A stretch of 64,000 nt of DNA from Flavobacteriaceae bacterium. Lineage in GTDB: Bacteria; Bacteroidota; Bacteroidia; Flavobacteriales; Flavobacteriaceae. Of this stretch, positions 12,413-61,879 are shown in pieces (the first letter of the stretch is position 1; each line of letters opens with the position of its first letter). The stretch is taken from assembly GCA_024742935.1 (NCBI GenBank), contig JANSXN010000002.1, forward strand, positions 1-64,000, in the 5' to 3' direction. The notes under the pieces are model-generated. The model was not told where the DNA came from and ran no database searches. It saw only the letters and a program-made list of their open reading frames with translations. A program made the position numbers and the translations under genes.

Positions 12413-13732
12413 ATGAACATTACAAAACAAGACATTGACAGTCTAAATGCCATCTTAAAAGTTTATATTTCTAAAGATGATTACGCACCACGTGTAGAAA
12501 AAATTCTTACAGATTACAAAAAAAACGCCAACATCCCCGGTTTTAGAAAAGGACATGTGCCAATGGGAATGATTAAAAAGCAATATGGAAAAGCCGTGCT
12601 ACTTGATGAGGTTAATAAATTGATCCAGGAGTCATTACACAAATACCTTACCGAAGAAAAACTGGATGTACTGGGCAATCCTCTTCCAAAAAATGAGATG
12701 GAAATCGACTGGGATGCAGATGATTTTGTCTTTGAATTTGAATTGGGACTTGCACCAAAATTTGAAATTGACCTTCAAAAGAAAGCCATCACAGATTATA
12801 AAATTGTGGCAGACAAAGAATTTTTGGACAACCAAATCAAAACCATCAGAAAACAATATGGCAAGCTCATTTCCAAAAATGAAGTAGCTAAAGGTGATGA
12901 GATTACCGGTACTTTCAAAAATGAAGATAAAGAAATTGACAATAAAGCCACTTTTTCTTTAGAGAAAATAAAAGGGAAAAAGCAATTAGAGCAGATTGTT
13001 GGCGCCAAAGTGGGTGATACACTTACTTTAAAAACCAAAGGTCTTTTTGAAGACGACCATGACAATCAAACCTTTTTAAAAGTAGATCATGACGATGTAC
13101 ACGGTTTGGATATTGAAGTGACTTTAACCATTGAAGAAGTCAATGCACGTGAAGAAGCTGAAATGAATCAGGATCTTTTTGACAAGCTTTTTGGTAAAGA
13201 TGTAGTAAAGTCTGAAGAAGAAGTGAGAGCAAAAATCAAGGAAGATGCTGAAAATCAATTTCAACAGCAAGCAGACCAGGTATTGCTTAATAATGCGGTA
13301 GAAAGTTTGATTGAAAATACAAAGTTTGATCTTCCGGGAGATTTTCTTACCCGTTGGATACAAAAAAGCGGTGAGCAGGAACTTTCTGAAGACCAAGCTA
13401 AAGCAGAATATGAGCGTTCAGAAAAAGGGCTTCGCTACCAATTAATTGAAGGGAAGTTAATGGCCGACAATAATTTACATGCCAATTTTGATGAATTAAA
13501 AGACTATACGAAGGCGATGGTCGCTTCACAAATGATGCAGTATGGACAAATGAGCCCCGCAGAGGAAGAAATGGATAATATCGCAGCAAGAATTCTTTCA
13601 AACCAAGAAGAGGCTAAACGTCTTGCAGAGCAATTGAACCAACAAAAAATGTTGAAATTCTTTAAGGAAAATGCCAAATTGAAGACTAAAGAAATTTCTT
13701 ATGATAAATTTGTGAAGGAAGCTTATCAGTAA
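12413..13732 (+). CDS. tig: trigger factor
   Basis: Ribosome-associated chaperone of 439 residues. The ribosome-binding signature appears as IPGFRKGHVPMGMIKKQYG at about residue 40. A diverged middle (PPIase-position) domain follows (KGDEITGTFKNEDKEID), then a long helical C-terminal domain. Length is typical. It precedes clpP and clpX in the same direction, the common proteostasis arrangement, but with its own promoter and a likely terminator before clpP. Confidence 0.94.
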   Translation: MNITKQDIDSLNAILKVYISKDDYAPRVEKILTDYKKNANIPGFRKGHVPMGMIKKQYGKAVLLDEVNKLIQESLHKYLTEEKLDVLGNPLPKNEMEIDWDADDFVFEFELGLAPKFEIDLQKKAITDYKIVADKEFLDNQIKTIRKQYGKLISKNEVAKGDEITGTFKNEDKEIDNKATFSLEKIKGKKQLEQIVGAKVGDTLTLKTKGLFEDDHDNQTFLKVDHDDVHGLDIEVTLTIEEVNAREEAEMNQDLFDKLFGKDVVKSEEEVRAKIKEDAENQFQQQADQVLLNNAVESLIENTKFDLPGDFLTRWIQKSGEQELSEDQAKAEYERSEKGLRYQLIEGKLMADNNLHANFDELKDYTKAMVASQMMQYGQMSPAEEEMDNIAARILSNQEEAKRLAEQLNQQKMLKFFKENAKLKTKEISYDKFVKEAYQ

Positions 13733-29412: not shown

Positions 29413-30459
29413 TTAGTCTGGGCAAGTTCCCCAGATGGGTTTGTTTTCGGGAGTCAGGGGAGCTCCATATGAAAAAGTAATCGGCTCGGTGGGAAAATTA
29501 ATTACACACCATTCGGATATATTTTGATTGAATTGGGATTCATAAAACATCGACTCCATTAATGACACGTTAGAAACATCCCAATTACCAATAGGTTGAT
29601 TGAATTGAGAACCGTAAAACATCAATTTCATTGTTGTTACATTCCCCACATTCCAATTTCCAATGGCTTGGTTAAATTCAGATTGTGAAAACATTCCAAA
29701 CATATTAGACACATTACTCACGTCCCAGTTTTCAATAGGTTGGTTGAATTTAGAGTCTTTAAACATATTTTCCATATCACTTACATTACTGACATTCCAA
29801 TTACCAATAGGTTGATTGAATTGTGAATTAGAAAACATTTCTTTCATATCATACACATTACTCACATCCCAGTTTTCAATGGGTTGGTTGAAATTAGAAG
29901 CTGAAAACATATTGCTCATCCCCGTCACATTACTGACATTCCAATTTCCAATAGGTTGGTTGAATCCAGATTCTAAAAATACCCCTATCATTTCCGTCAC
30001 ATTGCTCACATCCCAGTTCCCAATGGGTTGGTTGAATTCAGAGGCTACAAACATGCCTGAAATATTAGTCACATTACTTACATCCCAATTTTCAATAGGT
30101 TGATTAAATTGAGATATTGCGAACATATTTAACATATTAGTCACATTACTAACGTCCCAATTTCCAATGGGCTGGTTGAATTGAGATTGGGCAAATAGCC
30201 CATTCATATCTGTAACAAGAGAAGTACAAACTCTGGTTAAATCAGCTCCTTCATTCCTTCTTTGAATCAATAGATCGCTGTCAACTGCTTCATACTCTAC
30301 CCCATTGATGAACCCCTTATCGCCAACGTTGGCATTTTCACATTTACAGGTGATTCCATTTTCAGCTAAATAAAAAATTTGTGAATCTCCTTGAGAATCA
30401 TCATCGGAGGAACATGAAATAATAAATAAGCTGACAAATAAAAAGATAATTTTTTTCAT
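29413..30459 (-). CDS. BspA-like (DUF285) repeat lipoprotein
   Basis: A 348-residue surface lipoprotein: signal peptide with lipobox IISCS and an acidic DDD tether, a short N-terminal region with four cysteines or so (GITCKCENANVG), then ten 24-residue repeats (about residues 91-330) of the form SQFNQPIGNWDVSNVTNM..MF, the DUF285/BspA leucine-rich-like repeat. The last unit is diverged (FNQNISEWCVINFP) and caps the array. Such repeats occur in surface adhesins of Bacteroidota. The neighbouring tRNA genes are on the other strand. The repeat array could vary in copy number by recombination. Confidence 0.88.
   Translation of the reverse strand: MKKIIFLFVSLFIISCSSDDDSQGDSQIFYLAENGITCKCENANVGDKGFINGVEYEAVDSDLLIQRRNEGADLTRVCTSLVTDMNGLFAQSQFNQPIGNWDVSNVTNMLNMFAISQFNQPIENWDVSNVTNISGMFVASEFNQPIGNWDVSNVTEMIGVFLESGFNQPIGNWNVSNVTGMSNMFSASNFNQPIENWDVSNVYDMKEMFSNSQFNQPIGNWNVSNVSDMENMFKDSKFNQPIENWDVSNVSNMFGMFSQSEFNQAIGNWNVGNVTTMKLMFYGSQFNQPIGNWDVSNVSLMESMFYESQFNQNISEWCVINFPTEPITFSYGAPLTPENKPIWGTCPD
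29470..30189 (-). repeat. 72-bp tandem repeats inside the BspA-like gene
   Basis: Ten units of 72 bp, nine close to consensus. Units alternate between IGNW and IENW versions in much of the array, so a 144-bp double unit is also visible. Confidence 0.8.
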
Positions 30460-39273: not shown

Positions 39274-39378
39274 AGTGTTCAGTGTTCAGTGTTCAGTGTT
39301 CAGTGTTCAGTGTTCAGTGTTCAGTGTTCAGTGTTCAGTGTTCAGTGTTCAGTGTTCAGTGTTCAGTGTTCAGTGTTC
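39274..39378. repeat. heptanucleotide tandem repeat, 15 x AGTGTTC
   Basis: Exactly 105 bases of the 7-bp unit AGTGTTC without interruption, between the fructosamine kinase stop and the fabD start. Reading as protein gives SVQCSVF repeats, but no supported gene runs through it. On the fabD strand the unit reads GAACACT. Confidence 0.97.
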
Positions 39379-39417
39379 AAAAATGGTTTATAAAGATACT
39401 GCAAAATTAAAAATAAT

Positions 39418-40328: not shown

Positions 40329-41222
40329 TTACTTACGGATATACGTTAAATACGTAAAAGCAAACTCGTGTTTGTCGTCTTTGGGGTGGTGTTCTTCATT
40401 GATAAGTTCCCACTTGCTTTCATCGATATGAGGGAAAAAGGTGTCTGCCGGAAACTCAGAGTGAACGCGCGTGAGTTCAATTTTATCTGCATATTCCAGG
40501 CTTTGTTTGTAGATTTCGCCACCTCCTATGATAAAGGGTTGGTCATCTTGTTTTGCAAGTTCAAGTGCCTCATTGATGGAGTGAACCACGATAGCACCAA
40601 ATTTTTTATAGGTTTTGTCTCTTGTGATGACTACGTGAATTCTATTTGGCAAAGGCTCAGGGAAGGTTTCAAACGTTTTGCGGCCCATAATAATGTGGTG
40701 GCCTGTGGTAAGTTTTTTAAAGCGCTTGAAATCATCGGGTAAATGCCACACCAGATCATTGTCTTTTCCCAAAGCATCATTTTCAGAAGCGGCTGCAATG
40801 AGTGTGATTGTTTGGTTTTTAGCTTGCTTTGTGGCTTTGACGGGAACAGGTTTATTTGGCAAAGGCATTTCTTTATCAACTCTTTTTTGGAGTTCTGTTA
40901 TGCGTTTTTGTTGTTTGGCTTTGAGCTTGTCCAGTTGTTCATTCTCCCATTTTTTACCCATAAATCGATTGGTAAAAAAGACATTAAATGCGTGTATCAA
41001 AAAAAAGAATGTCCAGATGAGTATTGCCCAAACATACCAGTTTTCAATAGGCAGGTTTTTACCAACTCCCATTAGCTGGTCGAGAATAATGATAAAAGCA
41101 GAACCAATAAGAAAAACAACAAAGTGCTGATTGAGTCTTTTTTTCTGGCGAATGCGGTCTTGAGCATATAGAAATTGCTCGCGGTCTTCGTTTTTTTGAA
41201 TCTCGTTGTTTTTTGAAGACAT
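40329..41222 (-). CDS. folA: membrane-anchored dihydrofolate reductase (2TM-DHFR fusion)
   Basis: From ATG 41222 (MSSKNNEIQK) a 297-residue protein; the track start at 41333 is upstream of the family start. Residues about 29-90 form a 2TM domain (FVVFLIGSAFIIILDQLMG and WYVWAILIWTFFFLIHAF), followed by a basic coiled linker. Residues about 138-297 are a complete DHFR (ITLIAAASENDALGKDNDLVWHLPDDFKRFK with the active-site Asp, IIMGRKTFETF, FIIGGGEIYKQ). The frame is continuous. It lies downstream of thyA and two TonB-like genes, so makes tetrahydrofolate next to thymidylate synthase. Free DHFR is about 160 residues, so the anchor is the oddity. Confidence 0.92.
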   Translation of the reverse strand: MSSKNNEIQKNEDREQFLYAQDRIRQKKRLNQHFVVFLIGSAFIIILDQLMGVGKNLPIENWYVWAILIWTFFFLIHAFNVFFTNRFMGKKWENEQLDKLKAKQQKRITELQKRVDKEMPLPNKPVPVKATKQAKNQTITLIAAASENDALGKDNDLVWHLPDDFKRFKKLTTGHHIIMGRKTFETFPEPLPNRIHVVITRDKTYKKFGAIVVHSINEALELAKQDDQPFIIGGGEIYKQSLEYADKIELTRVHSEFPADTFFPHIDESKWELINEEHHPKDDKHEFAFTYLTYIRK

Positions 41223-41253: not shown

Positions 41254-42111
41254 CTATTGTTTTTTTGTTTTGGTATTGTTTTCAACCTGAAAAATAATGG
41301 GTAAAGAATATGAAACAGTAACATTTTTACCATTCACTTGGCCTGGAACCATTTTAGGTAGTGAATTGATAACTCTAACGGCTTCAAACTCTAAGAGTCT
41401 ATTTGGGCCTTTAGCAATAAAATCAGAAACTTCACCTTTCGTATTAATTTTGAATGAAATGTCAATTTTTACAATACCACTTAGGGTAGGCATAAAATCT
41501 ACAATTTCAGTATTATAATTTTCCACAACGAATTTATCAATTTTAGAGGCCATACATTTCTTTCTTTTTTCAAAGTCTTTAAATTTACAACCGGGATAAA
41601 TGGGAGGTGAAAGTGATTTTGAATTATTTTTTTCTAACAATTCTTCCTGCTCTTTTCATGATTCAAATTCATATATTGTTTTACCTGAATTATTTACAGC
41701 AATAATATTTCCATTATTTAAAGAGCTAAATGTCAGATTTACTTGAATTTTTTGATTGGTCAAATTAAGCGGGTATTCATTTATTTTTTCTGCTTCCTTT
41801 GAAGTAAATAAAACGACTCTTTTTAATGCCGTAAGTAAAGTTAAATTTGATGTGTGATAATCTTCTAACAAAAAAATACCATCATCGTTTGAAGAAATTG
41901 TGGCGGTTAAATTTTCTTGGTGATCACTTAATTTAAGAATATTTAGATCATTGTTTATTTCATAGCATATTAAAAGCATAAAACAATTTTCTAAACAATC
42001 TAAGGTGTCCGAAATAGTTTCTTTTTCCATGCATTCATTAAAAATCTTACTTTCTTGAGCATTACTCGGAAAAGAGAAAAATAGCATTAAAAAAAGAAAT
42101 ACCCTTAACAT
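41254..42111 (-). pseudogene. TonB-like protein interrupted by an in-frame TGA
   Basis: Two track ORFs (41656-42111, 151 aa; 41254-41640, 128 aa) lie in the same frame. Read through one TGA at 41656-41658 they make a single protein of about 285 codons: signal peptide (MLRVFLFLMLFFSFPSNAQ), a diverged middle with three cysteines or so (CLENCFMLLICYE), then the TonB C-terminal-like region (YPGCKFKDFEKRKKCMASKID ... GIVKIDISFKINTKGEVSDF ... LPKMVPGQVNGKNVTVSYSLPI). The second half has no start or signal peptide of its own except TTG. A nonsense mutation is most likely; programmed read-through or sequencing error are alternatives. It follows a complete TonB-like paralogue. Confidence 0.7.
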
Positions 42112-42116
42112 AACAT

Positions 42117-42548
42117 CTACTTCCCGGTCTTAAAATTAAAGGGTACTGCATAAGAGATGGCTCTGGGTTTACCGGCGAGCATACCCGGCTTCATTTTTGG
42201 AATGGCGAGAATGTTTCTTTTGGCTTCTTCAACGAGTTCTTTGTTTTTTCCTTCTACCTTAGTGATTTCGACTTCGCCACTGGCATTGATTACAAAATGG
42301 ACCACAATGCGTTCCTGCACATTGTTTTTCCAAGCATTTACAGGGTACTTAAAGTTTTTTCTAACGTGTTCGTTAAGTTTTTGGTCAAAACAGGCATCTG
42401 TTTTTGAGGTGTCGTTGCTTTCACAGCCGGGCCAAACCGGAGCAATTTCTTTCATAGTAACCTTGTTTTTGTCAACATCTCCCCATTTTTCTTGAGCCAA
42501 AGCTGGTAAAGAAATTAAAAGTACAAGTAAAAGCGCTAATTTTTTCAT
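42117..42548 (-). CDS. energy transducer TonB C-terminal domain protein
   Basis: A 143-residue secreted protein: signal peptide to about residue 19 (LPALAQ), then a TonB C-terminal-like domain (VWPGCESNDTSKTDACFDQKLNEHVRKNFKYP, VQERIVVHFVINASGEVEITKV, IPKMKPGMLAGKPRAISYAVPFNFK). There is no membrane anchor or proline-rich linker, so it is not a classical TonB but one of the small periplasmic homologues common in Flavobacteria. It stands 18 bases after thyA and 5 bases before the interrupted paralogue. Confidence 0.87.
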   Translation of the reverse strand: MKKLALLLVLLISLPALAQEKWGDVDKNKVTMKEIAPVWPGCESNDTSKTDACFDQKLNEHVRKNFKYPVNAWKNNVQERIVVHFVINASGEVEITKVEGKNKELVEEAKRNILAIPKMKPGMLAGKPRAISYAVPFNFKTGK

Positions 42549-42566: not shown

Positions 42567-43424
42567 TTAAACTGCTACCGCTCCTTTGATATGTGGATGC
42601 GGATTGTAATCGACTAAGGTAAAGTCTTCAAACGTAAAATCAAAGATATTTTTTACATCCGGGTTGATAATCATTTTGGGAAGGGGCCTCAGGTCTCTTG
42701 ATAGCTGTAATTCCAGTTGTTCAAAATGGTTTGAATAAATGTGTGCATCCCCAAAAGTATGGACAAAGTCACCCGCTTCCAGGTCACATACCTGGGCAAT
42801 CATAAGCGTTAACAGGGCATAAGATGCAATGTTAAAGGGCACACCCAGAAAAATATCAGCACTGCGCTGGTAAAGTTGGCAGGATAGTTTTCCTTTGGTT
42901 TCTCCTTTTGCCTCATCAGGTGGAGCCACATAAAACTGAAAAAATGCATGACAGGGTGGGAGTGCTGCTTTGCCGTTTGCTACGTTTTCACTAAATGGTA
43001 GTGAAGTGTCAGGCAGCACACTGGGATTCCAGGCAGAGATGAGCATCCTGCGGCTGTTGGGATTTGTTTTAATGGTATGGATGAGTTCGCTGATTTGATC
43101 GATTTGTTCACTATTCCAGTTGCGCCATTGGTGGCCATAAACAGGCCCCAAATCTCCATTTTCATCGGCCCAGTCGTTCCAGATTTTCACACCGTTTTCC
43201 TGCAGGTAGCCAATGTTTGTATCGCCTTTCAGGAACCACAAGAGTTCGTAGATGATGGATTTTAAGTGTAGTTTTTTGGTAGTGACCATTGGGAAGCCTT
43301 CACTGAGGTCAAAGCGCATTTGGTAACCAAACACACTTTTGGTACCGGTGCCGGTGCGATCGCCTTTGAAGGTACCGTTTTCGAGTACGTGTTTTACTAG
43401 GTCGTGGTATTGTTGCATAGTCAT
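42567..43424 (-). CDS. thyA: thymidylate synthase
   Basis: A 285-residue dTMP synthase. The N-terminal [11 protein letters not shown] folate/dUMP loop, the catalytic Cys in [12 protein letters not shown], and [26 protein letters not shown] are all present. The segment [14 protein letters not shown] before LSCQ is a short insertion typical of Bacteroidota. Two ATG codons (43424 and 43418) are possible; a hairpin ends exactly at the first. The 235-bp gap upstream holds that hairpin and a large inverted repeat but no gene. DHFR is encoded downstream. Confidence 0.96.
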
Positions 43425-60268: not shown

Positions 60269-61522
60269 TTAAAACCCAAACGCCTCTCTCACCTGTTCCA
60301 CCATATCCAGTTTTTCCCAAGTAAAGAGTTCAACTTCCATTTCTTTTCTGCCGGAATAGGGGCTTTCAAATACTTTAGTGATGGTTTGTGGCTCGCGTCC
60401 CATATGCCCATAAGCAGCTGTTTCGCTATAAATGGGGTTGCGCAGTTTTAATCTTGATTCTATTGCGGCCGGTCGCATATCAAAAAGTTGCATAACTTTT
60501 TCTGCTATTTCGCCATCGGTTAGGTTGAGCGTTGATGAGCCATAGGTATTCACATAAATAGAAGTGGGTTCAACCACACCAATGGCATAACTCACTTGCA
60601 CTAAAACTTCTTCAGCAATACCGGCAGCAACCAGATTTTTAGCAACGTGTCTGGCAGCATAAGCGGCACTGCGGTCTACTTTGCTGGGGTCTTTTCCTGA
60701 AAAAGCACCGCCACCGTGAGCGCCTTTACCGCCATAGGTATCCACAATGATTTTTCTTCCGGTTAAACCGGTATCCCCGTGAGGGCCACCAATTACAAAT
60801 TTTCCGGTGGGGTTGATGTGGTAAACAATTTCATCATTAAACAACTCCTGAACATAGTCAGGCAACTGTGCTTTCACACGTGGGATTAAAATATTGATGA
60901 TGTCGCTTTTGATTTTGGCGAGCATTTTTTCGTCCTCATCAAAATCATCGTGTTGTGTGGAAACAACAATCGCTACAATTTTTTGAGGCACGTTGTCATC
61001 ACTGTATTCAATGGTTACCTGACTTTTGGAATCGGGTCGCAAGTAAGGAATTTCTTTTTCTTCACGGCGCAAAGCTGCGAGTTCAATAAGGATTTTATGA
61101 GAAATGTCCAGTGCCAGTGGCATATAATTGGCTGTTTCGCTAGTGGCATACCCAAACATCATCCCTTGGTCACCGGCACCTTGCTCTTCTTTGTTTTCAC
61201 GGTCCACACCTTGATTGATGTCTTGTGATTGCTCGTGAATTAAAGAAATCACCCCGCAGGAATCACCACTAAATTGATAAGCACCTTTAGTATAACCAAT
61301 TTTATTCACCACATCACGGGCAATTTGCTGTACATCAAGGTAAGTATTGCTTTTTACTTCACCTGCAAGAACTACTTGCCCGGTAGTAACGAGTGTTTCA
61401 CAAGCTACTTTTGAGGAAGGGTCAAAAGCCAAAAAGTTATCTAAAAGAGCATCACTGATTTGATCTGCCACTTTATCGGGGTGACCTTCAGAAACACTTT
61501 CTGAGGTAAATAAATAAGCCAT
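60269..61522 (-). CDS. metK: S-adenosylmethionine synthetase
   Basis: A 417-residue enzyme making SAM from Met and [23 protein letters not shown] binds [29 protein letters not shown] gives the second catalytic block, and [10 protein letters not shown] the hexapeptide-like motif. Length is typical. It is transcribed alone. The 357-bp region upstream has repeat-like hairpins but no recognisable SAM riboswitch. Confidence 0.97.
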
Positions 61523-61879
61523 ATTTTGGTTTTAAAAGTTATTAAAAGTAAGAAAAATATTTGACGTAAAAAGCAGGGCAGACATACACTGTTTTAGCAT
61601 TTTATACCAAACTTGATTTCGTTTGATCAGGTTCTGAAATTGTTTCAGATCAACCCTCAAACAAGCTCAGGGGAATGAGGTTGCAATCAGTCAAATTTTT
61701 CCTCAAATTTCTCAACAAAAGTAAGTATTAAAAAACAATAATAAAATTGCTGAGATTTATTTTATGAAAGAACTTTTTAAAACTATTAATTCTCTTATTT
61801 TTACCTTCAAAAATATCCATATAAGTTACACGCTATCAGGAAAGAATTTAAAATAACAAGTGTCACACAAATTTATAAT
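61523..61879. other. 357-bp gap upstream of metK and the PagL-like gene
   Basis: No gene seen. It holds CTGAAA-TTG-TTTCAG (61634-61648) inside a TTGATC...ATCAA pair, and CCTCAAACAAGCTCAGGGG (61656-61674), both like Bacteroidota REP-type sequences. I find no clear -33/-7 pair on either strand. Confidence 0.45.

Follow-up and report, generated by a model that had tools for sequence, protein, structure and literature searches.

The locus and its reading frames

The window analysed is a stretch of 64,000 nucleotides from a draft flavobacterial genome of 2.63 Mb in 130 contigs (99.4% complete). One frame on its minus strand extends from an ATG at 42111 to a TAG at 41256-41254 and contains a sole in-frame TGA at 41658-41656. 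The sequence-only reading had described two ORFs in the same frame, 15 bases apart and split by this TGA; coordinates, frame and distance were all confirmed. The features of the locus are as follows.

42567..43424, minus strand: thyA-like gene, the conserved upstream neighbour
42117..42548, minus strand: intact 143-aa TonB_C paralogue directly upstream of the split gene (PF03544, 43.6 bits)
42111..41656, minus strand: upstream ORF, 151 aa, ATG start
41659..42111, minus strand: upstream half of the split gene, signal-peptide-like start and N-terminal domain, 151 codons
41656..41658, minus strand: in-frame TGA, located in the interdomain linker, which is variable (alignment of six orthologues)
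41254..41655, minus strand: downstream half, comprising the remaining linker, the TonB_C domain (PF03544 over cut-off) and the natural stop TAG
41640..41254, minus strand: downstream ORF, 128 aa, TTG start, same frame as the upstream ORF
40329..41222, minus strand: dihydrofolate reductase-like gene, the downstream neighbour

The thyA-like gene, so named from its sequence, the 143-aa paralogue, the split gene and the dihydrofolate reductase-like gene follow one another in this order on one strand with short gaps, and probably form a single operon. In the last of these the dihydrofolate reductase domain begins only at about residue 139 and is preceded by hydrophobic segments, an arrangement resembling that in congeners G003 and G004. 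Elsewhere in the window, a perfect tandem array of 15 copies of the 7-mer AGTGTTC lies between two genes at 39274-39379, and 72-bp tandem repeats (8.5 copies, 71% alike) occupy 29576-30186 within ORF 29413-30459. A match to the SAM-II riboswitch (46.2 bits; cut-off 44) was obtained on the minus strand at 61584-61710, upstream of ORF 60269-61522.

The TTG of the downstream ORF, 15 bases from the TGA, is merely the first permitted start, the frame being open directly past the stop. A run of 133 open codons follows the TGA, for which the chance expectation at the local base composition is 8e-6. GC contents at codon positions 1, 2 and 3 were 32.5, 26.5 and 19.2% in the upstream half and 39.6, 28.4 and 21.6% in the downstream half; in both halves this is the composition of coding DNA.

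Read through the stop, the frame specifies a protein whose N-terminus, MLRVFLFLMLFFSFPSNAQ, is signal-peptide-like and resembles a cleavable signal (SFPSNAQ), in each case as judged by eye. The downstream half scored 26.5 bits against PF03544 (TonB_C) and the read-through protein 24.9, the Pfam gathering cut-off being 24.6; intact orthologues scored 27.8-40.4 bits. The signal peptide and TonB-like C-terminal domain proposed from the sequence-only reading were thereby borne out, the former by eye and the latter by the 26.5 bits of the downstream half. No other domain of the two-domain protein was matched in the family libraries searched, and NCBIfam assigned neither the gene nor its orthologues to a family. 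Weak Pfam matches to HEAT_MROH2B and RP853 fell below the cut-off and were rejected. The N-terminal domain may be a second, degenerate TonB_C domain: its predicted topology is alike at modest confidence (pLDDT 62), and a profile comparison, although it kept the register, was weak (E 0.024, probability 2%). The best fold matches, which do not distinguish the matching half, were the C-terminal domains of TonB and TolA, at E 0.004 or worse. As predicted from its sequence, the intact protein is probably exported. Judged from the domain it carries, its original role was most likely that of a periplasmic accessory protein meeting TonB-dependent receptors or TonB partners.

Distribution of the gene and constraint on the window copy

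Five intact orthologues of 257-295 aa, each a single ORF, were found at the equivalent position, behind thyA and the 143-aa paralogue. They belong to congener G001 (295 aa, 33% identical to the window copy over the whole length), G261 (288 aa), G141 (294 aa), G437 (257 aa) and G435 (257 aa), the last four having been located with profiles of the N-terminal half. The upstream half of the split gene is supported by the whole-length match to the G001 orthologue, to which the downstream half is 44% identical. No relative ends at the position of the TGA with a separate gene downstream. Such an arrangement, named in the sequence-only reading as the one that would speak against a broken gene, was looked for, and the five orthologues run through as single ORFs.

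Two further copies are themselves disrupted. That of G282, a single-contig genome, has a frameshift within the first domain, and that of G440, a fragmented assembly, has one in the linker; these may be real or assembly errors. The frameshifted copies (L081:1498-2272 and L130:31-797), from two flavobacteria, are broken at different sites and keep the TonB_C frame open. In a genome of another genus (L072) a shorter relative without the N-terminal domain, consisting of TonB_C with its own signal peptide, stands at the same place.

Among 400 sampled genomes of the family, five, the source genome of the window included, matched the N-terminal half strongly at this locus. Congeners G002, G003 and G004 lack the gene altogether, and all three keep the paralogue; in G003 and G004 the paralogue and the gene after it are only about 15-20 bases apart. 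Gene remnants in G002 were considered and rejected: what the spacer there matches is confined to the intergenic sequence downstream of the gene in G001. By its distribution among relatives the gene predates the genus, is rare and has been lost often. It is also dispensable in the genus, since three congeners keep the paralogue yet lack the gene. The paralogue, a signal-peptide-plus-TonB_C protein, was found in five of five genomes of the genus. The suggestion that this intact paralogue could buffer loss of the split gene is a weak one, as the resemblance amounts to 33% over about 107 aa, in the C-terminal half only, and three congeners with the paralogue do without the gene.

In relative-rate tests against four outgroups, the window copy had 29-46 unique changes and that of G001 15-22 (chi2 4.5-12.7). 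For the control genes, thyA and the paralogue, the window was slower than G001. Much of the excess falls in the N-terminal domain: of its 23 residues that do not vary among the outgroups, the window copy retains three and G001 12 (Fisher p 0.011). Beyond the stop the corresponding figures are 30 of 44 and 34 of 44 (p 0.47), so that the signal of relaxed constraint is weak or absent in the C-terminal half. At 27.9%, the GC content of the window copy is near that of intergenic DNA (about 30%), and none of the 46 long ORFs measured in the window is as low (mean 38.9, sd 3.4; lowest value 32.9). The intact orthologues of G437 and G435 are likewise AT-rich. The low GC content and the fast N-terminal domain may be older than the stop, and relaxed constraint seems, from these comparisons, to have come before it.

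No second stop or frameshift was found past the TGA in the window copy. A simple simulation that left out indels gave a neutral version of this sequence a probability of 0.77 of acquiring no further stop when 1% of change per site had built up; the value fell to 0.26 for 5% and to 0.07 for 10%, in line with a recent stop.

Origin of the in-frame stop

The sequence-only reading had left the gene as freshly broken, recoded or misread. A fresh break fits best; a misread base is possible, and no positive finding speaks for recoding. The split gene is probably a recent nonsense pseudogene; the exported TonB_C protein concerned is dispensable and lineage-restricted. The ancestral gene, directly after thyA and the paralogue, would have encoded an exported protein of two domains, with the N-terminal domain joined by the linker to a C-terminal TonB_C domain. 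The TGA in the linker would stop translation after 151 residues, with loss of the TonB_C domain. The upstream half could still yield the signal peptide and N-terminal domain, the downstream half would be left without an export signal, and about 430 untranslated bases would precede the dihydrofolate reductase gene, whose expression they might lower. The loss would be one of repeated losses of the gene in this group. Since the C-terminal domain past the TGA has kept its sequence well, the stop would be recent (or an assembly error), and for the window copy both loss of function and recency of the break are probable. That preservation is at the same time what counts against a pseudogene, the TonB_C half being conserved to about the same degree as in the intact copy of G001; a very recent break would explain it, and so, equally well, would an assembly error or continued production of the full-length protein.

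The most probable alternative is a gene that is really whole, its TGA a mistake of sequencing or assembly or else the less common allele in a mixed population. One wrong base would suffice, the genome is a draft in 130 contigs, and all sequence past the stop is in frame and well kept. Against it, relaxed constraint is indicated independently in the window copy, and other relatives too have the gene broken or lack it. No other break was found in the window over about 50 genes shared with the close relative G004, which led us to reject a generally error-rich assembly and also argues against this alternative. The cases flagged in that comparison came down to differing start sites, to an antisense ORF or to breaks in G004 itself; at about 75818-75827 of G004:C3 the orthologue of window ORF 12413-13732 is split in two frames, likely by a frameshift or assembly error there. 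We consider a consensus error unlikely on this balance. A division into two functional genes, one for an exported N-domain protein and the other for a separately started TonB_C protein, would agree with both frames being open and with the shorter TonB_C-only version, with its own signal peptide, in another genus. Against it, the downstream half here lacks a signal peptide and has only a TTG start, and the two parts are joined in all intact relatives. Translational coupling at the ATGA overlapping the stop was rejected, the ATG being out of frame and reaching the end after 11 codons. Two genes are very improbable.

Recoding of the TGA, or regulated readthrough giving a short and a long product, would account for a domain past the stop that is better preserved than the domain before it, as well as being in frame. 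Its machinery and signals did not emerge. Model searches of the 99.4% complete genome for SelB and tRNA-Sec gave sub-threshold matches only; the best SelB-type match was a 399-aa frame of elongation-factor size (that of EF-Tu-sized proteins), and the best tRNA-Sec matches were tRNA-Ser genes (ARAGORN). RF2 is present, encoded by prfB at G000:C13:17763-18806 (L126). The match contains one internal TGA, presumably that expected from the well-known frameshift autoregulation. TGA serves as the terminator of three of the 46 long ORFs of the window, and the RNA past the TGA of the split gene folds no better than shuffled sequence (z 0.66). The linker that holds the TGA is conserved in neither sequence nor length, and the five orthologues have no stop or Cys at the aligned position. 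Selenocysteine insertion and suppression were rejected, with no machinery over the cut-off and no downstream structure. Recoding is therefore highly implausible, and it is just as hard to credit that readthrough at a useful rate yields two products, one short and exported, the other long and carrying TonB_C.

For annotation, the locus is best recorded as one probable pseudogene, neither as two genes nor as a recoded gene. Given the repeated loss, it illustrates on a small scale how a dispensable gene can sit next to essential ones; beyond annotation the finding matters little. Searches of the literature on the genus and on such pseudogenes returned nothing relevant.

Comparison with known systems

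Proteins with a TonB_C domain (PF03544) and a signal peptide but no membrane anchor resemble the split gene product, which passes the Pfam cut-off, has a signal-peptide-like start and lies beside an intact paralogue. It differs from them in an extra N-terminal domain found in few relatives. A likeness to the TonB energy transducer, the partner of ExbB-ExbD, is seen in the C-terminal domain, which is about 42-53% identical to two TonB genes on contig C124 of the same genome; these are closer relatives within the genome than the 143-aa paralogue. Unlike such transducers, the read-through protein contains no proline run and so no proline-rich linker, which one of the C124 TonB genes has. Its N-terminus, judged by eye, may be a cleavable signal in place of a membrane anchor.

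With bacterial pseudogenes produced by a single nonsense change, the window copy shares intact orthologues in place, one inactivating change, a raised rate, drift towards AT and absence from sister species. It departs from them in that the part past the stop is well preserved, which points to a young break or an error.
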